64,000 nt of DNA from contig CALDSU010000016.1 of the NCBI GenBank assembly GCA_937924525.1, forward strand, positions 62,001-126,000, read 5' to 3'. Made by a program: the position numbers and the translations under genes. Positions within the stretch are counted from its first letter, which is position 1. Every line of letters starts with the position of its first letter. Below are positions 7,958 through 39,161 of the stretch, in pieces. This DNA comes from an uncultured Bryobacteraceae bacterium. Its GTDB lineage: Bacteria > Acidobacteriota > Terriglobia > Bryobacterales > Bryobacteraceae. The notes below the pieces were generated by a model. It was not told the origin of the DNA, ran no database searches, and worked only from the letters and a program-made list of their open reading frames with translations.

Positions 7958-8980
7958 ATGTCCGAGCGCAAACTGACCGCGCACGTGAAAGCCGCCGGTT
8001 GAGCGTCCAAGCTGAGTCCAAAGGTTTTGGACCGGGTGCTGGCCAGCGTGCCGCGCGTCACGAACGAGAACGTCCTGGTCGGCTTTGATACCGCCGACGA
8101 CGCCGGCGTGTATCGTCTGACGGCCGACACCGCGCTGGTGCAAACCGTGGACTTTTTCACGCCCATCGTGGACGACCCGTGGCTGTTCGGCGCCATCGCG
8201 GCAGCCAATGCTCTCAGCGACGTTTACGCGATGGGCGGCCGTCCGCTGTCGTCGCTGTCCATTTTGTGCTACCCGGGCAAGGGCGACCTGGAGGATCTGG
8301 CGCGGATCCTGGCCGGCGGCGCGGAAAAGATGCGCGAGGCCGGATGCGCCATCCTCGGCGGCCACTCGGTGAACGATGAAGAGATCAAGTTCGGTTACGC
8401 GGTGACCGGGCTGGTGCATCCGGAGAAAATCAAGGCCAACGCCCAGGCGCGGGCGGGCGACGCGCTGGTGTTCACCAAGCGGATCGGGACGGGAGTGATC
8501 GCCACGGCGTTGAAACGCGGGCTGGCGCGGCAGGAGGACGTGGACGCGGCGATCGCGTCGATGCTCACCTTGAACCGCGCGGCGTGCGAGGCGATGCTGG
8601 CGTTCGACGTGCACGGCTGCACGGACATCACCGGCTTCGGTCTGCTGGGCCATGCGCGGGAAGTGGCAGTGGCCAGCGGCGTGACGCTGGAAATCGATCC
8701 CGGCCAGGTGCGCTGGCTGCCCGGCGCGCGGGAATACGCCCGGCAAGGCGCGATTCCCGGCGGCCTGCGCAACAACCAGGATTTCGTTTCCTGCGCCGTG
8801 GAGAAGACGCGCGAGGTGGCGCCGGAGGTCGAGCAACTGCTGTATGACCCGCAGACCTCGGGCGGCCTCCTGCTGACCCTGCCGGAAAGCGCTGCCGCCG
8901 CGCTCGAGCGGATCTATCCGGAGGCGTACCGCATCGGCCGGGTGACCGCGCGCGGCGCATCCCCGCTCCGGCTGGTTTGA
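7958..8980 (+). CDS. selD: Selenide, water dikinase; selenocysteine-containing (in-frame UGA)
   Basis: A 340-residue protein when the UGA at 8000-8002 is read as selenocysteine. The ATG at 7958 sits behind a GGGAGGG ribosome-binding site and encodes MSERKLTAHVKAAG, then UGA (residue 15), then ASKLSP. The U-x-x-K spacing (Sec15, Lys18) equals the Cys17/Lys20 pair of E. coli SelD. The downstream sequence has the SelD core: TADDAGVYRL, ALVQTVDFFTPIVDD, AAANALSDVYAMGG and ILGGHSVNDEEIKFGY. The enzyme makes selenophosphate from selenide and ATP. A SECIS-like hairpin directly follows the UGA. A standard gene caller would start wrongly at the TTG at 8027 and lose the active site. Confidence 0.93.
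8000..8032 (+). promoter_or_regulatory. Bacterial SECIS-like element for selD UGA recoding
   Basis: The UGA (8000-8002) is followed by a perfect 7-base-pair stem, GTCCAAA (8016-8022) with TTTGGAC (8026-8032), closing a GGU loop (8023-8025). Known bacterial SECIS elements place a GGU-containing apical loop roughly 16-37 bases after the UGA; here the loop begins 21 bases after it. The hairpin lies within coding sequence, as in fdhF-type elements. SelB and tRNA-Sec genes are not in the window. Confidence 0.75.
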
Positions 8981-8989
8981 CGCCGCCAG

Positions 8990-9303
8990 GCCGGACGAGC
9001 GCCTCGTCGGTCAGGCGGTCAGTCAGATACTCGCCGGGACGCCCGCCCGCCCGGCAGGCCGGGCACATACCGGTATTCGCCTCCGAAGCGGCGCGCGCCT
9101 TTGTAGGGATGGAAGAACGTGGCGGGAGCGCCCCAGAACGTGCCTCCGATGTTGATATCGAAACCCTGCGTCTCCGGATAAAAGCCCGCGGCGCCCAGGT
9201 GCCACTGGCCGACCAGCGCGGTGAGGTAGCCGGCCTCGTGCAGGTGTTCGGCGAGCGTGACCTCGGCAAGGGGCAAGCTGCCGGCCCCGCCCGGAGGCGT
9301 CAA
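8990..9303 (-). pseudogene. Type I sulfatase remnant (truncated, frameshifted)
   Basis: Two reading frames together give a central sulfatase segment. The first (9303 down to about 9050) reads LAEVTLAEHLHEAGYLTALV, GQWHLG and PETQGFDINIGGTFWG, then PYKGARRFGGEYRYVPGLPG. The second continues GGRPGEYLTDRLTDEALV down to about 8990. The GKWHLG-like and GFD motifs are diagnostic of alkaline-phosphatase-superfamily sulfatases. Missing are the N-terminal metal site, the formylglycine CxPxR motif and the whole C-terminal half. The frame break coincides with three tandem GCCC units at 9041-9052; two units would restore the frame. The stretch from 9304 to 9446 shows no gene. Confidence 0.75.
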
Positions 9304-9446
9304 TTTCCGCCAGGCACCCGCGCCGCGACACGGAGCTTCGGAAAGATCGCATCATGATTTCTTTTCGATGGTCGCGGAACCTCCCGCCGGAAGGAAGCGG
9401 CGCTCCCGCAACTCGCGTACACTGGGAGCCGCGAGGGCCTGTTTCC

Positions 9447-10577
9447 ATGCCGAGCCGAAGAGATTTTCTCGAATTCACCGCTGCCGCGCTGGCGGGAGCG
9501 GTGGCGCGCAAAGCGGAAGCCGCGCCGGAGGCGGCGGACGGCGAGTGGCGGAACCGCCAGCCCGGCATGTCGTACCGGCGGCTGGGCCGTACCGGCTACC
9601 TGATTTCCGAAGTGGTGATGGGCGGGAACCTGATTGCGCCGGACCGCCACGAACACGTGCTCCTGGCCGTCGATCTGGGCTTGAATTACTTTGACACCGC
9701 CCCGGTATACGGCGAGGGGAAGTCCGAGCAGGGCTACGCGCTCGTGGTGAAGGCGCGCGGGCGCGACCGGGTGTTCGTCAACAGCAAGGTCAGCCTGTGG
9801 GATTTGAACCGCAACCGGCTCTACCAGGAGATTTTCGACAGCCTGCCGGAAGCGGAACAGAAGCGCCTGCGCCACGCCGCGCGCGAAAGGATGGAGCGCA
9901 GCGGGGCGCTGGAGGCGGATTACCTTGCCGACTACTTCAAAGATCAGCGCGCGGAACTGGAAGCGGCGACCCTTTCCGACGTGATGGCCGAGCGGTACGG
10001 CGGCCGGATCGATCGGGGCAAGCATTTCCGGCAGTTGATTCTGGACTCGGTCGACGGGAGTCTGCGCCGCTTGGGCACGGATCACCTGGATCTGCTGATG
10101 TGCCCGCACGGCGCGAACACGCCGTACGAGGTAAAGCACCCGGAGATCGCCGAAGCGTTCGAACGGCTCCGCAAGGCGGGCAAGGTGCGCCATTTCGGCG
10201 TGTCGGCGCACACCGACCCCGCCGCGATTCTGGAGACCGCCGTCGACCTCGGCCACTACTCCGCGGCGATGATCGCGGTGAACATCCTCAACCACCGCTA
10301 TCTTGGCGGAGCGCTAGATCGCGCGCGGCAGGCGGACGTCGGCGTGATCGCGATGAAGGCGGCGCGCCCGGTCCATCCCGGCGACGGGCGCTATGAGCCA
10401 AGTCCGGACCGCGTGCGCCGGATTCAGGAGGCGGTGCCCGGGCCGCTCAAGGTCCCGTTGAAGGCCTATTCGTGGGTGCTGCGCGACCCGCGCATCTCGG
10501 CCGTGATCTCCGAAATGGGCGACGCGGCGCTGGTGCGCGAGAACCTGGCGCTGGCCGCGCCCCGGCCCCGTGGTTGA
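9447..10577 (+). CDS. Aldo/keto reductase family protein with Tat-like signal
   Basis: A 376-residue protein. It starts MPSRRDFLEFTAAALAGAVA, a twin-arginine-type leader, followed by the aldo-keto reductase core: MSYRRLGRTGYLISEVVMGG and LGLNYFDTAPVYGEGKSE, which carries the catalytic Asp and Tyr, then VFVNSKVS with the catalytic Lys and DLLMCPHG with the His. These enzymes reduce carbonyls with NAD(P)H; many exported Acidobacteriota and Planctomycetes members are of unknown substrate. The ORF extends 31 codons further upstream (9354), but that extension is arginine/proline-rich and would bury the leader, so the ATG at 9447 is preferred. Confidence 0.85.
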   Translation: MPSRRDFLEFTAAALAGAVARKAEAAPEAADGEWRNRQPGMSYRRLGRTGYLISEVVMGGNLIAPDRHEHVLLAVDLGLNYFDTAPVYGEGKSEQGYALVVKARGRDRVFVNSKVSLWDLNRNRLYQEIFDSLPEAEQKRLRHAARERMERSGALEADYLADYFKDQRAELEAATLSDVMAERYGGRIDRGKHFRQLILDSVDGSLRRLGTDHLDLLMCPHGANTPYEVKHPEIAEAFERLRKAGKVRHFGVSAHTDPAAILETAVDLGHYSAAMIAVNILNHRYLGGALDRARQADVGVIAMKAARPVHPGDGRYEPSPDRVRRIQEAVPGPLKVPLKAYSWVLRDPRISAVISEMGDAALVRENLALAAPRPRG

Positions 10578-32169: not shown

Positions 32170-32538
32170 CTACTGCGGAACTTCGCGGCCCATGGACTTG
32201 TAAATGCCCTCAATGAGCGCGATGTTGTCCTTGGCCTTCTTGTTATTGGCGTCGTAAGTCAGCACTTGGCGGAACTGGCGCAGCGCGCCCGGATATTTCC
32301 GGAAAGGAGGCATCTGGGGGTTATGCATCAGGGACTCGCCATAGGCCAAGTGCGCTCCCGCCAGCGCCGTCTTCACTTCGGCGTCTTTCGGGTTCGCCTT
32401 GTGCTCGGCTTCGAGCGCGGCAATGGCCTGCTCGAACTTGCCCTCCTTCAGTTGCGCGTTCGCCGCCGTCACCTTGGGGTTGGCGGCAAGCAGAGAAATG
32501 GCGCTCAAGGCGCCTGCCAGCAGGATTTTTGGGATCAC
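32170..32538 (-). CDS. Small exported TPR-like protein
   Basis: A 122-residue protein with a signal sequence (VIPKILLAGALSAISLLAAN) and about two TPR-like helical pairs: AQLKEGKFEQAIAALEAEHK and LRQFRQVLTYDANNKKAKDN. It begins with GTG inside the upstream transglycosylase gene (four-base overlap) and is followed nine bases later by the PLP enzyme, so the three form one operon. Periplasmic protein-protein interaction is the likely role. Confidence 0.72.
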   Translation of the reverse strand: MIPKILLAGALSAISLLAANPKVTAANAQLKEGKFEQAIAALEAEHKANPKDAEVKTALAGAHLAYGESLMHNPQMPPFRKYPGALRQFRQVLTYDANNKKAKDNIALIEGIYKSMGREVPQ

Positions 32539-33218
32539 TCTTTTATCGTACCAGCAGGTCTGGGGGCGTCCGTGCGAGCCGGCTGCTTCCCCGCGGATTT
32601 TACATAACGCTGGAGCACCCGCGACACATACCACTGGGTTTCCAGGTACGGCGGTACGCCGCCGTGGCGGTCCACTGCCCCCGGGCCGGCGTTGTAGGCC
32701 GCCAGGGCGCGGTTGGCGTCGTGTCCGTACCGGATCAGGAGGTCGCGCAGAAATCGGACTCCGGCTTCCAGATTCTGCTCCGGATCGCGCGGATCCGCGC
32801 CAAAGGACCGGGCGGTGTCCGGCATCAACTGCATCAGGCCGATGGCGCCCTTGGGGGAAACCGCCTCCTGCCGATAGCCGGATTCGGCGGCGACGACGGC
32901 GTGGACGAACTCTTCCGGCAATCCGTGCCTGCGCGCCGCGTCGTCAATCTGTTCGCGGAGGGTGCGGGGCCGAGGGGCAGGCGGAGCCGGGCTTTCGGGA
33001 GCGGCTGCCGCTGTGCTGGGAGACGGTACGGTTTCAAAACCGGCGATCTGGTCGGCGGGCAAGCGCGTTTGGCCACCCTCAGCCGAAAAGAGGACGACCT
33101 CGGCCCCGTCCTGCTCATGCCGGTCGATTTCCAGGCGGAAGCCGGAGCGGAAAATCGCCACCTCCACGGCAAACGCCGAACGGACGGCCAGCAGCAGGGT
33201 GGCGAGGAACCGGATCAT
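32535..33218 (-). CDS. Lytic transglycosylase (SLT domain)
   Basis: A 227-residue exported protein with a signal (about residues 1-17), a short N-terminal beta region, a proline/alanine-rich linker (around residue 70-85) and a C-terminal SLT/goose-lysozyme-like domain. The catalytic Glu is in VVAAESGYRQEAVSPKGAIG, followed by LMQLMPDTARSFGADPRDPE and ALAAYNAGPGAVDRHGGVPP. It cleaves peptidoglycan between MurNAc and GlcNAc with formation of 1,6-anhydro-MurNAc. Domain order resembles small MltC/Slt-type enzymes of Acidobacteriota. Confidence 0.9.
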   Translation of the reverse strand: MIRFLATLLLAVRSAFAVEVAIFRSGFRLEIDRHEQDGAEVVLFSAEGGQTRLPADQIAGFETVPSPSTAAAAPESPAPPAPRPRTLREQIDDAARRHGLPEEFVHAVVAAESGYRQEAVSPKGAIGLMQLMPDTARSFGADPRDPEQNLEAGVRFLRDLLIRYGHDANRALAAYNAGPGAVDRHGGVPPYLETQWYVSRVLQRYVKSAGKQPARTDAPRPAGTIKE

Positions 33219-33308
33219 GCGAGCAGCGCCTTCGTAATCATACCGGTTTCGAAGTCATGACGAATCGCAGCGGCCCGGCGTGGAAAGGTTTTCTCTAGTA
33301 CCCGCGGG

Positions 33309-33324
33309 GCCCTAGTGCTAGGGC
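33309..33324. promoter_or_regulatory. Perfect 7-bp inverted repeat upstream of the TPR operon
   Basis: GCCCTAG (33309-33315), two bases, then CTAGGGC (33318-33324). An adjoining CCCGCGGG palindrome lies at 33301-33308. The position about 55-70 bases before the first gene of the operon suits a dimeric regulator operator or an RNA hairpin; no promoter boxes are clear. Confidence 0.4.
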
Positions 33325-33379
33325 GGCAGCCTCAACCTGATCCTCGGGTTCTTCTCCTAAGTCTTTTCAGATAGGGGAT

Positions 33380-33874
33380 TTGACGACTGGTACTTCCTGC
33401 CGGTTCACCCTACCATGGAACTTCGGTACGTGTGACGTGTCCGTTCCGCAGCCCCTTCGGCGCCCGCAACTCGCTCCCGGCGAGACAGAAGCCGGTCGTG
33501 CGGGGGGAGATCGGAGGCCTGTCCTGAAGGTCGTGCAGGGCGGCGCGGCAGCGGGTGAGGCGCGGGCCGAACCCCCGATGGCAGGACCGGTTGCCCTGCC
33601 AGTAGAAGCCGCGGCGGGGGTGGCTACGGGCGTGGAAGTGGGAGGTCCGCGGTGGATCGAGGTGAAGGCTTGGCCGGCGCCGCCGCAGGCGCTGTGGCGG
33701 ACGCCGGCCGGATTTCTGCCGTTCCCACTCAAGTTAGCGCGAGTGGATCCGGACGGCATGCGCCGGCGAGTACGACCGATTCCGTTCCCGCCGGTGATGC
33801 TGCGGCGAACGTATTTGGAGGAAAAGCTGTTGCGTTGGGAAACGCCGCTGTGGCAAGACGGCGGCGATGGCTGA
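33380..33874 (+). CDS. Hypothetical protein, first gene of the TPR operon
   Basis: A 164-residue arginine/proline-rich protein. The C-terminal ~80 residues look conserved (RWIEVKAWPAPPQALWRTPA, RRVRPIPFPPVMLRRTYLEE); the N-terminal part is low complexity. The frame is open from a TTG at 33380 preceded by AGGGGA; a GTG at 33437 is an alternative start. It has no signal or membrane segment and no recognised family. Its stop is 12 bases before the next gene, whose GGAGGGG ribosome-binding site lies between them, so it is probably real and co-transcribed. Confidence 0.5.
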   Translation: MTTGTSCRFTLPWNFGTCDVSVPQPLRRPQLAPGETEAGRAGGDRRPVLKVVQGGAAAGEARAEPPMAGPVALPVEAAAGVATGVEVGGPRWIEVKAWPAPPQALWRTPAGFLPFPLKLARVDPDGMRRRVRPIPFPPVMLRRTYLEEKLLRWETPLWQDGGDG

Positions 33875-33886
33875 GCAGGAGGGGCG

Positions 33887-35581
33887 ATGGCGGAAAGCAC
33901 AGGGAAGGACGAGAAACGGGCAGGACCGGCCGGTCTGATGCGGCTGGATCCGGCGAACTTCCTCCTCCCGTATGACCGGCCGCTCGGGGATTATCTGTGC
34001 GGTGCGGTTGGCGCGGAATTGTTGAAGGGGCATGGAGCTTGGCACACGGCGATCGACTTTGCCGTGGACGCCCGCTGGGATAGCCTGATCGCAGCGCTCC
34101 AACCGACCCCACTTGACGGGCAAGGTCCGGCGCTCGCGCCGGAAACACTCGACCTGGTAGTTCTAGCGGGCGCAGTGCGGAGCGAACCGCCGGCGGTTGA
34201 GCCGGAGACAGCGCCGCCGCCCGCACCCGAGGCGGCGCCGCCGGACCCGGAACCGGCGGTCCCCGAGTCGGCGGGCTTTGTTTTTGACACGACTCCAACC
34301 GAAATTGCGCCGCCGCCTGGCGAACTTTGTGCAGAAGCGGCGGTCGTCGCGGACCGGCCGCCGGCGATCGAACTGCCGGAGCGCGAGGCCGAGCCCTTGC
34401 GGCTGCGGATGACCTTCGGCAAGGCCCCCGCGACGGCGCCACCAGAACCGAGCGAAGCCAGGCGTCCCGCCGATGGGCCTCGGCCGGTCGAAGAAACAAA
34501 GGCGGCCACGCCGATTCCCAAACCGGAAGTCAAGTTGCCGGAGCGCGCCCGTCCGGTGGAGCCCGACACGGGCGCTGCCGCCGAGGCGAAACCGCAACCG
34601 CGCCCGACACTCGTGCCGGCAACTCCTCCGAAGCCGGCATCGGCGGTGAAGCCTGCGCCCGTGCCGATGCCCAAGCCGTCCACTCCCCGTCCGGCGGTGG
34701 TTCCGAGGCCCCTCAAGGGCTCGCCCGTCCCCGCCGTGACGCCGGCAGCGGAGGCAGACCGGGCTCCCGCGACGGCGGAGGCGTTGCCAGCGGCCCGTCC
34801 GACGCTGGTCCCGGACCGCAAGCCCGCCGGCGCTGAGCCGCAGGCCGAGCCGGCGGCGCCCTTGCCGGTTCCATCCTTCGGCGGCGCGGCCGCCTCCGGT
34901 CCGGCCCTCTCGCTGACCGGCGAGGCCCTGCGCGCCGACCAGGTCGAGGTGCCGAGCGGAATTCCCGGTCTGTTAAAAGTGGTGGTCCCGCTGCTGCTGG
35001 TGGCCGGGGGCGGGGCTTATTACTTCCTGTCCACGGGCGCTCCGGAAGCGGCCAAAACCACCCGTCCCCGGAGCGCGGGCGTGGAGTCCGGCGCTCTCAT
35101 TGAGCAGGGCTGGGTCACCGAGTGGGCTTCGGATCCGGCGGGCTCGCGGCGAGGGCGACAACTGACGTTGTATAAACCGTCGCTGCCGCTGTCGAATTAT
35201 CAATTTATGTTCAGTGGCAAGATCGAGCGGGGGGCGCTGGGCTGGGTGGTCCGGGCGTCGGATACCAAGAATTACTACGCGATGAAGATCAGCCAGGAAG
35301 GATCCGCGGCCGTGTTTCGCCGCTGGGCCGTGGTGGACGGGCGCGAAAGTTCGTACTCGGAAAAGCGGCTCGCCCAGCTGGCTGGTCCGGGCCAGACGTA
35401 TCAGGTTCAGGTGGAGGCAGACGGACCGCGCTTTACCGTGTCGCTACAGGGTGAGCCGATCGAAGTCTGGATGGACAACCGCCTGGCGGCCGGCGCGGTG
35501 GGATTCCTTAACGAGAGGGAAGAGCAGGGCCGCACCACCGCGGTGCAACTGAAGTATGCCAAACGGCCCGCAGGCAACTAG
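33887..35581 (+). CDS. Pro/Ala-rich membrane-anchored protein with extracytoplasmic C-terminal domain
   Basis: A 564-residue protein. The N-terminal ~75 residues include YDRPLGDYLCGAVGAELLKG, then about 280 residues of low-complexity proline/alanine/glutamate sequence. One transmembrane helix follows (about residues 363-382, LKVVVPLLLVAGGGAYYFL), and then a ~180-residue beta-rich domain. The last domain has LPLSNYQFMFSGKIERGALG and WVVRASDTKNYYAMKISQ, resembling LamG/concanavalin-like or 3-keto-glycoside-hydrolase-like jelly rolls, but no catalytic residues are evident. The architecture suggests a long spacer linking a cytoplasmic head to a periplasmic binding domain. Function unknown. Confidence 0.75.
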   Translation: MAESTGKDEKRAGPAGLMRLDPANFLLPYDRPLGDYLCGAVGAELLKGHGAWHTAIDFAVDARWDSLIAALQPTPLDGQGPALAPETLDLVVLAGAVRSEPPAVEPETAPPPAPEAAPPDPEPAVPESAGFVFDTTPTEIAPPPGELCAEAAVVADRPPAIELPEREAEPLRLRMTFGKAPATAPPEPSEARRPADGPRPVEETKAATPIPKPEVKLPERARPVEPDTGAAAEAKPQPRPTLVPATPPKPASAVKPAPVPMPKPSTPRPAVVPRPLKGSPVPAVTPAAEADRAPATAEALPAARPTLVPDRKPAGAEPQAEPAAPLPVPSFGGAAASGPALSLTGEALRADQVEVPSGIPGLLKVVVPLLLVAGGGAYYFLSTGAPEAAKTTRPRSAGVESGALIEQGWVTEWASDPAGSRRGRQLTLYKPSLPLSNYQFMFSGKIERGALGWVVRASDTKNYYAMKISQEGSAAVFRRWAVVDGRESSYSEKRLAQLAGPGQTYQVQVEADGPRFTVSLQGEPIEVWMDNRLAAGAVGFLNEREEQGRTTAVQLKYAKRPAGN

Positions 35582-35617
35582 CGCGCCGCCTGGCTTTGCG
35601 AGTGAAATGGGGGAAGC

Positions 35618-37309
35618 ATGAGCGACAACGACAAGTGGGTGTGGTTTACGGACGATGATCCGATTGAAGGGCTGATCGGGCGGCGGCGGAAGGGCGCGGG
35701 ATGGGATCCCAGCCCGGTGGCTTTGGATGAGACCGCTCCCGAGACTCCGAAGCGCGCCGGGACCGAGGGCCTGGTCGCCGCCATTCAGATGCACCTGGCG
35801 GGTCAGACGGACGGCGCGCTGGCCAGACTCGACGAGGCGGCGGCCGCGGGCGAAGATCCCGCCGAGGTCTATTCGGCGAAGGGCAACCTGCTGTTCGGCC
35901 AGGGAAAGTTTGAGGAAGCAGCCGCCAGCTACGCCAGAGTGCTGGAGGCGAACCCGGGACATCGCACCGCGCACTACAACCGCGGAGTCTGCCTGGAGCG
36001 GGCGGGCGATTTCGCGGCGGCGGCGTGGAGTTTTCGCAAAGCACGCGAGGCGGATCCCGAACGGCGGGAGTCGCGCCTGGGGCTCGCGCTGTGTTTGCTC
36101 CACACCGGCGAGGCTGCGGAGGCGCTCGCGGAGTTCGACGCGTACCTTGAGAAGGGCTCGGACTGGGCGGGACAGTTGGGCCGGGCGGTGGCCTTGCACC
36201 TGGTTGGGCGGACGGACGAAGCCGCGGCGGTGTACGAGTCGCTGCTGGCGGTCAAGCCCGATGACGAGGAAGTGCTGAGCAACCTCCTGGCGCTCCGGAT
36301 GGCGGGTCAGGACCGGGAAGCGATCGCGGCTGCCGCCGCCCGGTTGCGGGCGGTCCGGCCGGACGCCCGGGCGGCGCTCGAGGCGCTGGCGAACCTGGCT
36401 CTGCGGGCCGGCGATTGGGAAACCGCGCTGCGGCACTGCGCCCGCCTCACCGAGTTGGACGAGTCGAACTTTGTCGCGTGGTTTAACCTCGGGGTCGCGT
36501 CGGCGGAAACCGGCCGCCTGGAGCAGGCCGCGGCAGCCTACGGCAAAGCGGCGGAACTGCGGCCCGACTCGGCCCAGGCTCACGCGAACCTGGGAGTGCT
36601 TGCGCAGAGGGCCGGCGATCTGGCGGCGGCGCAGAAAGCATATCAACGGGCGCTCGCCCTCGACCCGGACCTGCCCGGACCACAGTGGAACCTCGCGCTC
36701 GTCCACGAACGCAAGGGCGAATTCGAAGCGGCGGAAGAGGCTTATCAGCGGCTCGTGGAGACGCACCCGGAATGGGAGAATGCCTGGTTCCGGCTCGGGT
36801 ACCTGCGCCTGCAACGGCTCGAGTATGCAGGGGCGCAGGCAGCGTTCACTGAGTGCGTCGCCCGCCGCCCGGATTGGGTGGATGCGCATCTGAACCTCGG
36901 CATCGCCGCCTGGAAGCAGGGTGACAAGGAAACCAGCCGCCAGCACTTTGAGAAAGCGCTGGCCGGCGATCCCGCACTGGTGGACGCAGTGCGGGCGCTG
37001 GCCGCGCTCGCCGTCGAGCAGAACGACGCGGAACGGGCGTTTGAACTCCACTTGCGGTTGATGGAAATGGGCGAACGCAGCGCGGAGTTGTTCTATAACA
37101 CTGGTCTGCTGCTGCACCGCACCGGCAAGCTGGAGGAAGCGGCCGAACGCTACCGCCAGGCGCTGAACGAACGGCCCGGCTTTGTCGAGGCCCTCCTCAA
37201 CCTCGGTCACGTCCTCCACGGATTGGGTCAGGAAACCGAGGCGCGAACCTGCTGGAAGCAGGCGGCCGAGGCCAATCCCGACGTGGCGGCGCAGTATTTC
37301 AGCAGTTGA
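35618..37309 (+). CDS. TPR-repeat protein with N-terminal WVW-acidic motif
   Basis: A 563-residue soluble protein. It begins MSDNDKWVWFTDDDPIEG, followed after about 50 residues by roughly 14 tetratricopeptide units, for example HYNRGVCLERAGDFAAAAWS, NFVAWFNLGVASAETGRLEQ and AHANLGVLAQRAGDLAAAQK. TPR superhelices act as protein-interaction scaffolds. GGGGGAAGC precedes the ATG. It is followed by a second TPR protein with a related N-terminus. No signal or membrane segment is seen, so it is probably cytoplasmic and could bind the cytoplasmic part of the preceding membrane protein (inference). Confidence 0.8.
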   Translation: MSDNDKWVWFTDDDPIEGLIGRRRKGAGWDPSPVALDETAPETPKRAGTEGLVAAIQMHLAGQTDGALARLDEAAAAGEDPAEVYSAKGNLLFGQGKFEEAAASYARVLEANPGHRTAHYNRGVCLERAGDFAAAAWSFRKAREADPERRESRLGLALCLLHTGEAAEALAEFDAYLEKGSDWAGQLGRAVALHLVGRTDEAAAVYESLLAVKPDDEEVLSNLLALRMAGQDREAIAAAAARLRAVRPDARAALEALANLALRAGDWETALRHCARLTELDESNFVAWFNLGVASAETGRLEQAAAAYGKAAELRPDSAQAHANLGVLAQRAGDLAAAQKAYQRALALDPDLPGPQWNLALVHERKGEFEAAEEAYQRLVETHPEWENAWFRLGYLRLQRLEYAGAQAAFTECVARRPDWVDAHLNLGIAAWKQGDKETSRQHFEKALAGDPALVDAVRALAALAVEQNDAERAFELHLRLMEMGERSAELFYNTGLLLHRTGKLEEAAERYRQALNERPGFVEALLNLGHVLHGLGQETEARTCWKQAAEANPDVAAQYFSS

Positions 37310-37364
37310 CTTTGCGAACCCCTGAACCGGCCGTGGAAGAGCCGGAAGGAAGGTCGACGATCAC

Positions 37365-39161
37365 ATGGAACGCGCGCCGGATGATTGGGTATGGGTCGAC
37401 GAAGACCCGTTCTCCGCGCCTGCGCCCTCGCCGGATCGCCTCCCGCTTCCCGCTCGGCAGGACGGGGAACCAGCTCCTCCGCTTCCGCCGCCCCAGTCGA
37501 GCCTGGACGACTGGGTGCGCGAAGGAGCAGAGGGGCCTGTCTGGACCCCGGAGGAGCTGCTCGCCTCGTTCCGTCACTTGGGGATCCCGGCCGAATTCGT
37601 CGTCTCGGTCGGCATGCCCGGGCACGATCTTGCGGGCGGGGGCAAATCCCCACTCGAGGCGGCGCGCGATCTGGCCCGGCAAAACCAGTGGCAGGCAGTG
37701 CTCACGACGCTCCAAGGCGAACAGTCTGCTCCGGCATCCGCGCTGCGAGGTTGGGCCTGTTTTCAGTTGGGGCTGTTTCGGGAAGCCGTTCCGGAGTTGC
37801 AATCCGCCGTGCCCTCGCGCGGCGTCACGTTTGTTCTGGGACTCTGCTTCGACAAACTGAACCGGCCCGAGGATGCGTTGGCCTGTTTTCGCCAGTTGGC
37901 CGACGCCGAGCCGGACGAGTTCCGCTGGAGGGGAGCGGCGGGAGTTGTCCTGCTGAAACTGTCCAGGCCGGAAGAGGCTTTCGCGACCTTCAATCAGTGC
38001 CTCGCGCAGAATCCATCGCAGCCTGAGATTTTGTTTGGTAAAGCATTGGCATTGCATTATTTGGGAAATCTTGAAGAGGCCGAATCAGCCTACCGGGAGT
38101 TGCTCCGCCGACAACCGGACTGCGAGGATGCGCTGGTGAACCTGATTGGCTTGGCCAGCCAAACCCGGAAAGAAGAGTCCCTGCTCCGCTACACCGGACT
38201 GCTTCTCAAGCGGAAACCCGACTCGCCGGTCGCGCTTCGGGCGCTGGCCGCCATCGAACTAGAATCGGAGAACTGGGAAGGCGTCTGTTCGCTTTGCACC
38301 CGGATTGCCGCGCAGGATCCGGGCGCTTTTGAAGTCTGGTTTAATCTGGGCGTCTCGCGACAGGCTCTGCACCAGCACGAGGAATCCGCCCTGGCGTTCA
38401 CCGAGGCGGTGCGGTTGCAACCGGAATCCATGGAGGCGCGGGTTGGGCTGGCGACCGCGTGGCAGGATGCCGGCAATGAGGAGAAGGCGGCCAAGGTATT
38501 TCAAGCGATTCTTGAAATTCAGCCTGACGACCCGTTCGCGCAAATACAACTAGCCGCGCTGGCCGAGCGCCGCGGCGACGCCGCCGAAGCCGAACGCCGG
38601 CTAGCCGCCTTCGTTGCGCGCCATCCCGAGTCGGCTGCGGCGCATTTTCGGCACGGTTGTGTGAGGATGGATTGTGGCGCACCCGCCGAAGCGGCGGAGT
38701 CCTTCCGGGCGTGCCTTCGGCTGGACCCCACCTGGGCCAAGGCGCGCTACAACCTGGCGATTGCCCAGTGGGCTGCTGGCGACTTGGACGGCGCAGTGGA
38801 AACCGCAAGCCAACTGGCCGAGGAAGAACCCGGATGGAGCCGCGCGGCTGAGATCGCGGCGCAGGCCACCCTCCAGCAGGGTAGATTCGCCGAAGCGGCC
38901 GGCTGGTGCCGCCGGGCCCTTTCTCGAGGAGAAAGAAATCCCTACACTATCTTTAATTTGGGAGTAATTCTTCAAGAGGAAGGTGAGTATGACGAAGCCC
39001 TGCGCCTTTTCCGGGAGGCCCTCAAGGAACGTCCCCACCTTCCTGAGGCGCTCGAGCGCCTTGGCCAGATTCAGTGGCGCCTGGACCACCCGGACGAGGC
39101 CAAAGTCTACTTCCGGCGCGCCCGCACGGTAGGTCCGGAACTCATCGAGAAACCAAGCTAA
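37365..39161 (+). CDS. Second TPR-repeat protein with N-terminal WVW-acidic motif
   Basis: A 598-residue soluble protein with about 12-14 TPR-like units (LALHYLGNLEEAESAYRELL, WFNLGVSRQALHQHEESALA, IFNLGVILQEEGEYDEALRL). Its N-terminus, MERAPDDWVWVDEDPFSA, matches the acidic tryptophan motif of the previous protein, then a proline-rich stretch and LASFRHLGIPAEFVVSVGMP. It starts 55 bases after its neighbour. A shared N-terminal motif on two different TPR scaffolds suggests a common docking partner. No characterised homologue is recognised. Confidence 0.8.
   Translation: MERAPDDWVWVDEDPFSAPAPSPDRLPLPARQDGEPAPPLPPPQSSLDDWVREGAEGPVWTPEELLASFRHLGIPAEFVVSVGMPGHDLAGGGKSPLEAARDLARQNQWQAVLTTLQGEQSAPASALRGWACFQLGLFREAVPELQSAVPSRGVTFVLGLCFDKLNRPEDALACFRQLADAEPDEFRWRGAAGVVLLKLSRPEEAFATFNQCLAQNPSQPEILFGKALALHYLGNLEEAESAYRELLRRQPDCEDALVNLIGLASQTRKEESLLRYTGLLLKRKPDSPVALRALAAIELESENWEGVCSLCTRIAAQDPGAFEVWFNLGVSRQALHQHEESALAFTEAVRLQPESMEARVGLATAWQDAGNEEKAAKVFQAILEIQPDDPFAQIQLAALAERRGDAAEAERRLAAFVARHPESAAAHFRHGCVRMDCGAPAEAAESFRACLRLDPTWAKARYNLAIAQWAAGDLDGAVETASQLAEEEPGWSRAAEIAAQATLQQGRFAEAAGWCRRALSRGERNPYTIFNLGVILQEEGEYDEALRLFREALKERPHLPEALERLGQIQWRLDHPDEAKVYFRRARTVGPELIEKPS

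Follow-up and report, generated by a model that had tools for sequence, protein, structure and literature searches.

A conserved membrane-protein/TPR gene module of Bryobacteraceae and its variant form in an uncultured member of the family

We analysed a group of genes encoding a single-pass membrane protein (B) and two tetratricopeptide repeat (TPR) proteins (C and D), which resides on a stretch of 64,000 nucleotides (the window) from an uncultured Bryobacteraceae bacterium (GenBank assembly GCA_937924525.1, contig CALDSU010000016.1, positions 62,001 to 126,000). Bryobacterales are poorly studied soil bacteria. Judging by sequence comparison, the group is probably a variant form of a conserved, so far undescribed module from one Acidobacteriota family, in which a membrane protein ending in a jelly-roll-like (JR) domain is followed by a TPR protein. 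The module occurs in two types, with (type I) or without (type II) an aromatic-acidic peptide at the N-terminus of the TPR protein. We tentatively read the window locus as a rearranged Bryobacterales type I module acting as a membrane-anchored signalling scaffold and put the probability of this reading at about 0.4. The first-pass annotation had recognised no described counterpart, and none was found in a search of open-licence papers; a published description may nevertheless exist.

Conservation of the gene pair and of the N-terminal motif

The gene order was compared in 40 loci, i.e. stretches around a JR domain from relatives and from the window's own genome, in which TPR proteins were labelled at an expect value (E) below 1e-40. 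A TPR gene directly follows the JR protein gene on the same strand in 35 of them, the window included. The remaining loci are L023, whose contig ends, L033, L057, L058 and L059 (L, G and C numbers are our working numbers for loci, genomes and contigs). Within the window's family the JR domain was detected in 74 of 101 genomes; in this and the other family-wide search reported below the number of candidates scored in each genome was limited, which makes absences soft. When 396 genomes of the phylum were searched, the strong matches were three of the window's family, and five weak ones (E 2e-14 to 7e-9) lay elsewhere; L033 and L041 are members from two other families of the same order. Furthermore, 84,980 species genomes were scanned with an N-terminal finger of the type I membrane proteins (see below). 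The scan yielded 29 named loci, all bar one with Acidobacteriota titles and many titled Bryobacterales, Bryobacteraceae or Terriglobia. L089 (the same as L030; CALQCC020000014.1) stems from a metagenome-assembled genome titled Bordetella parapertussis that carries the Acidobacteriota module; the label looks wrong.

C and D begin with MSDNDKWVWFTDDDPIEGLIG and MERAPDDWVWVDEDPF, respectively. The first-pass annotation had pointed to a WVW-acidic pattern common to both starts, and this observation was corroborated: in the whole genome (5,524,951 bases) the DNA pattern coding for WVW-x(1-2)-[D/E]3-P was matched twice, at the starts of C and D, while the reversed pattern had no match. In view of these counts for 5.5 Mb and of the retention of the motif in relatives, a resemblance by chance was rejected. 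In relatives the TPR proteins start with an extended form of the motif that has the consensus NDxWxFFVDDELxExLxRGD, and WVW is one variant of this form. Gene order and motif, on whose conservation in related genomes the earlier reading had been made to depend, are thus both retained there.

A loose version of the motif matched all 25 type I TPR proteins and none of 25 type II proteins, which have the same repeats and lack the peptide. Shuffled type I starts gave 1.7 matches on average and at most six out of 25, and six of 1262 other open reading frames (ORFs) of at least 200 amino acids (aa) matched. Because the types had first been sorted by the motif, a TPR tree calculated without the N-terminal columns served as an independent check. 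The two types lie on opposite sides of one of its branches (Shimodaira-Hasegawa-like approximate likelihood ratio test, SH-aLRT, 92), and the motif requires a single change, versus 17 on average with shuffled labels; the tree came from a quick search, this branch was not starred, and the branches of D, L041, L104 and L034 are long. Eleven rows had been dropped before counting, namely seven from contigs already present, the over-long ORF of L062, the partial one of L067 and two that contain runs of N or a partial frame (L096; one shows the motif). The cut-off ORF of L108, whose start keeps the acidic half of the motif and lacks the aromatic pair, was also left out.

C and D match TPR_2 with E 5.7e-56 and 1.7e-49, respectively, and are paralogues of one another (31% over 480 aa). 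As duplication copies the N-terminus too, the WVW pattern might merely have been passed on in this way, D being a duplicate of C whose start was kept by chance or for translation and has nothing to do with docking. We consider this quite unlikely, since the rest of the N-termini and the repeats diverged strongly (the terminal branch of D measures 2.2 versus a median of 0.26) while the motif stayed, and since not one of the 25 type I rows has lost it. D was also considered as a conserved second TPR protein of the module. This was rejected: a one-to-one relative was not seen in six further genomes, the best matches reached 29-35% identity, and in the five genomes with a match they were TPR proteins on contigs with a JR domain.

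The structure model of C (predicted local distance difference test, pLDDT, 91.9; predicted template modelling score, pTM, 0.79) comprises one superhelix (aa 50-561) and a disordered N-terminus (aa 1-45, pLDDT 33-40). The N-terminal peptide was not placed in the protein's own TPR groove, the alignment used being shallow (50 rows, half of them without the motif). A peptide that is predicted to be free fits docking onto another protein, an argument which is soft because of this alignment. On the basis of the model, docking of the peptide in trans is plausible but unproven. Kinesin light chain TPRs are known for W-acidic and LFP-acidic peptides, and the combination of a TPR protein with a short tryptophan-acidic peptide is similar here, but the peptide is located on the TPR protein itself. 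As the modelled peptide does not occupy the groove, docking in cis of the kinesin light chain kind was set aside and the comparison kept as a chemical analogy.

Alternatively, the peptide may be a self-assembly device inserted into the concave groove of the neighbouring TPR protein, by which C and D would form mixed filaments under the membrane. MamA-type scaffolds assemble into TPR filaments via the groove. The long regular superhelix with its free peptide and the presence of two adjacent TPR proteins with the same peptide would suit such a device, and C and D score against the NCBIfam MamA model, though with 160.8 and 126.4 bits they stay below its equivalog cut-off of 200 bits. Self-assembly is nevertheless unlikely, as type II TPR proteins share the repeats and have no such peptide, and as it does not predict that the peptide travels with a roadblock gene and a spacer motif (see below). 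Regarding the best 25 NCBIfam models shown, C is below every cut-off, while D passes one TPR chaperone model, SctY (90.2 versus 70 bits), which was taken for a generic TPR match.

The membrane protein and the roadblock gene

B has no Pfam match above cut-off (PF06439 gave 12.5 bits, the cut-off being 26.8), and neither B nor four membrane proteins from relatives had a match in NCBIfam. With the relative L023 it shares 51% over 202 aa. Its translation contains one clear hydrophobic segment, and the model of its outer domain reached a pLDDT of 88.4 and a pTM of 0.84. Among solved structures, CBM66 of B. subtilis (4azz_A) was the best match to this model (Z 17.6, root-mean-square deviation 2.5, 143 aligned residues, 21% identity); thrombospondin, galactocerebrosidase, GH43 and galectin domains came next. 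Foldseek was also run. The JR domain is thus predicted to have the CBM66 beta-sandwich fold, and the earlier description of B as a single-pass membrane protein with a Pro/Ala spacer and a jelly-roll-like outer domain could be maintained. Apart from the superposition, the domain differs from CBM66/DUF1080-like (PF06439) domains in that B does not attain the family cut-off and in that it forms the end of a single-pass membrane protein and not of an enzyme.

The spacers of type I membrane proteins harbour the motif LPLRPxM[V/T]LGPAP. Tallied by eye, PLR plus a tail of this kind is present in 25 of 28 type I loci, in the window as PLRLRMTFGKAP; the exceptions are L027 with a GLRR variant, L024, where the case is unclear, and L025, where it is missing. 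Among 29 other JR proteins, tallied likewise, six contain PLRP, without the tail. The finger protein of L104 was left out of this count.

The membrane proteins of relatives usually start with a finger of the form CxxC-x(12-18)-C-xxx-[H/C] (54 of 55 finger matches, a count covering proteins already picked by finger similarity), which in type I is typically an N-terminal CxxC..FCSxxH. It is reminiscent of FCS-type or treble-clef, YacG-like zinc fingers, but Pfam finger models gave no match at cut-off (zf-FLZ E 0.15, DUF2116 E 0.35). In the window the finger is absent from B as well as from ORF A, a doubtful gene upstream of B, and it is not encoded in any frame of positions 33151-33950. The JR proteins of L024 and L025, two copies in genome G003, lack it as well.

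Divergently upstream of the pair, 26 of the 29 named loci contain a gene for an MglB-like roadblock protein, at a distance of 119-398 bp in the 23 loci with a called finger ORF. The three loci lacking this gene are type II. Since the scan that gave the 29 loci used five type I fingers as queries, all from roadblock-bearing loci, and returned the five query contigs as well, the independent count, obtained after removal of these contigs, is 21 of 24. Out of the 26 roadblock loci, 21 have a following TPR gene, L108 has the cut-off ORF with a motif-like start, and L091, L103 and L117 end at a contig edge. Within the family, a roadblock homologue was detected in 19 of 101 genomes and in 13 of them is accompanied on the same contig by a JR domain 0.75-3.1 kb away. 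The others are G000 (the window's genome), G009, G459, G474, G487 and G495, in some of which the gene lies on a short contig.

The usual set of relatives comprises the roadblock gene, a finger/spacer/transmembrane/lectin-like protein and one TPR protein; therefore, four genes with two TPR proteins are a local arrangement. From the four-gene operon proposed by the first-pass annotation, B, C and D remain as firm genes, whereas ORF A is doubtful. The window copy agrees with the type I definition in part, as a JR membrane protein is directly followed by a TPR protein with the aromatic-acidic motif. By all appearances it is a derived or variant type I copy without the finger, with an unlinked roadblock gene and with D added. 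Thus, the initial observation turned out to be more general than could be seen from one stretch of DNA, while its interpretation is partly supported; the idea of a surface system was an inference.

A possible signalling scaffold and its alternatives

If the type I module acts as a membrane-anchored signalling scaffold, the membrane protein would sit with its N-terminus inside and its C-terminus outside, the lectin-like domain may bind a glycan in the periplasm, and the disordered cytoplasmic spacer, usually together with a finger on the same side, might present a peptide to the TPR superhelix, which would grip it. Through its own free N-terminal peptide the TPR protein could recruit another cytoplasmic partner, for which a roadblock dimer is the best candidate. 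In those relatives that encode a sigma-54 activator beside the TPR protein, this activator may form the output, and in the window lineage the second TPR protein could share the same partner through the same peptide. This reading is favoured by the position of the TPR gene directly behind the membrane-protein gene, the divergent roadblock gene and the roadblock homologues near JR domains, the agreement of the motif split with a single branch of the TPR tree, the spacer motif, the CBM66-like fold, the TPR N-terminus predicted to be free and the sigma-54 activator genes downstream of TPR genes. With its two co-travelling short motifs and the roadblock gene, type I would offer a testable handle on a link between envelope and cytoplasm.

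Several data weigh against this scaffold reading. Sugar binding is presumed from the fold of the JR domain. The topology is weakly indicated: by charge bias, the positive side is N-terminal in 22 out of 42 JR proteins, reversed in 12 and tied in eight, and B itself has a charge of -2 before and -1 after the helix, slightly in disfavour of an inward N-terminus. The type I loci L103:8001-9368 and L109:8001-9404 encode finger-spacer proteins ending with SKILTLFGG in which the JR domain was not detected, which is why the system may not be centred on the outer domain. The roadblock locus L114 has no following TPR gene, and in L027 (G021) the motif is present but a roadblock gene was not found. The window's genome possesses a single Robl_LC7 gene, which lies on another contig (C8:289128-289508) and shares 91% identity with the one in the G003 cassette, and no sigma-54 activator is located beside the window operon. 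Moreover, the Ras-like GTPase model PF08477 had no match in this genome, while 11 of 14 controls matched; as no Roc-type GTPase was found there, the usual partner of a roadblock protein may be missing. With PF00025, which matched 12 of 14 controls, one match of the genome exceeded the cut-off (E 4.8e-6) within a 994-aa frame and was tentatively taken for a GTPase of the translation-factor type, not a Ras-like one.

In L109 a TPR protein with the motif still follows the finger-spacer protein. The region around the window genome's roadblock gene (L055) was considered as a hidden second type I cassette and rejected, no JR or TPR gene being labelled there; its nearest genes were read as DJ-1/PfpI-like and dipeptidase-like, and a sigma-54 activator of the response-regulator type lies 3 kb further on.

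In a broader form, the scaffold would stand for transmembrane signalling by roadblock proteins without a Ras-like GTPase, in which the aromatic-acidic and PLRP peptides tie a roadblock dimer and a TPR superhelix to a lectin-like membrane protein, with wiring to a sigma-54 activator in some species and a peptide-less type II sister in the same family. We regard this extension as rather doubtful. Should it be true that the roadblock protein acts without a small GTPase, the known role of bacterial roadblock proteins would become wider.

The recurrent close neighbours of the gene pair are the roadblock cluster and a cluster that was later identified as sigma-54 activators. In seven of the 29 named loci (L089, L090, L092, L097, L098, L099 and L105) an activator gene follows the TPR gene on the same strand at 41-119 bp, in L102 at 1.2 kb. 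The activator of L089 consists of 326 aa with almost nothing before the AAA domain; that of L090 has about 330 aa as well. It might be suggested from this proximity and from the short activators that the peptide docks the activator in a PspF-like control switch, the TPR N-terminus holding and releasing it. Such a switch is quite unlikely, because an activator is missing beside most type I loci, including the window operon, because sigma-54 activators are common genes, and because L093 and L100 instead have a different, GAF-type activator after the roadblock gene.

Another reading sees a structural envelope machine for export or polysaccharide assembly, with the TPR proteins as assembly factors. 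The lectin-like outer domain would be in accordance with it, as would the fact that C resembles NCBIfam models for TPR proteins from pilus and exopolysaccharide systems, with scores below the cut-offs. However, no channel, pilin, glycosyltransferase or secretion gene is recurrent beside the pair, and neither a signal peptide nor a transmembrane segment was read from the translations of the predicted TPR proteins, which makes such a machine improbable. An anti-phage system was rejected too: PADLOC disclosed nothing for B, a roadblock protein and a finger protein, and gave weak matches for C and D alone (PrimPol E 3.7e-6 and 5e-4; TPR model 8.9e-7).

Roadblock proteins are also components of known systems. 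MglA-MglB is a roadblock/Ras-like GTPase system. Actinobacterial conservons are reported to combine a Ras-like GTPase and a histidine kinase with a roadblock protein (PMC13343842). The relatives of the window locus are similar to both in encoding an MglB-type roadblock protein next to a membrane-associated, sensor-like protein, but their cassette contains no visible Ras-like GTPase or histidine kinase and has a TPR scaffold and a lectin-like domain instead. Membership of the window locus in either system was rejected, since the GTPase was not found in its genome and its roadblock gene lies outside the cluster, on C8. In Bdellovibrio, the 353-aa protein Bd2492, encoded in a tamAB operon, is reported to be a TPR hub for MglA, mglB having been lost (PMC3983030). 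A TPR protein partnering an MglA/MglB-type polarity system is the common trait, but here the roadblock gene is kept and MglA was not found. The module resembles the conservons and the Bdellovibrio hub in parts and fits the definition of neither.

Layout of the window locus and other arrangements

The coordinates of all features are compiled in the table below. The four reading frames are separated by 12, 36 and 55 bp.

Table. Positions of the genes, domains and motifs of the module within the window
Feature	Position	Strand	Remarks
ORF A	33380..33874	+	164 aa, TTG start; doubtful gene
B	33887..35581	+	564 aa: N-terminal segment, Pro/Ala spacer, one transmembrane helix, CBM66-like outer (JR) domain
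Pro/Ala-rich low-complexity spacer of B	34139..34936	+	about aa 85-350, from translation
Spacer motif PLRLRMTFGKAP of B	34394..34429	+	aa 170-181, variant of LPLRPxM[V/T]LGPAP
Predicted transmembrane helix of B	34961..35029	+	about aa 359-381, the protein's most hydrophobic 19-aa window
JR domain of B	35099..35548	+	about aa 405-554, CBM66/concanavalin-like fold (model)
C	35618..37309	+	563 aa, TPR superhelix protein (model aa 50-561)
N-terminal aromatic-acidic motif of C (DNDKWVWFTDDDPIEGLIGR)	35624..35683	+	modelled disordered
D	37365..39161	+	598 aa, second TPR protein, strongly diverged
N-terminal aromatic-acidic motif of D (DDWVWVDEDPF)	37380..37412	+	

ORF A, the first gene of the set, may not be real. 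Its codon scores per codon (synonymous/full) are near zero (-0.011/0.009), versus 0.048/0.109 for B; C and D, which belonged to the training set of the scoring, gave 0.118/0.340 and 0.030/0.203, respectively. A search of 27 genomes, by which ORF A was ruled out as a conserved gene, returned no good relative; the best match outside its own genome (E 0.0048) contains an internal stop. Of 11 proteins compared with it, a single one showed a faint similarity (z 4.2; 0 of 500 shuffles), namely L023:1617-2213 of relative G003, a separate finger-bearing ORF at the position equivalent to that of ORF A. Divergent from the operon, positions 32535-33218 (minus strand) contain a lytic transglycosylase (SLT) gene. 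As no relative of this gene was present in 20 loci compared, it is probably an accidental neighbour.

Several loci show other arrangements. Short proteins of about 330 aa composed of finger and JR domain and without a following TPR gene (L057:6873-7862, L058:7346-8305 and L059:7054-8073) make up a third size class within the JR family, and L056 holds one such lone protein plus one full pair. The finger is encoded separately from the spacer, transmembrane and JR parts in L023 (1617-2213 with 3-1571) and in L114 (8001-8369 with 8278-9843), by a gene split or a frameshift. The window's own genome additionally harbours a type II cassette (L042, G000:C18, 6606-12505) with two tandem finger and JR membrane proteins followed by one TPR protein without the motif. 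A third arrangement, found in L025:6848-9971 and L088 (G348:C15), consists of a finger-less JR protein, a short TPR protein (about 290 aa) and a conserved protein that starts with MARLR(I/V)R(M/V)EL and in L025 possesses a RodZ_C domain.

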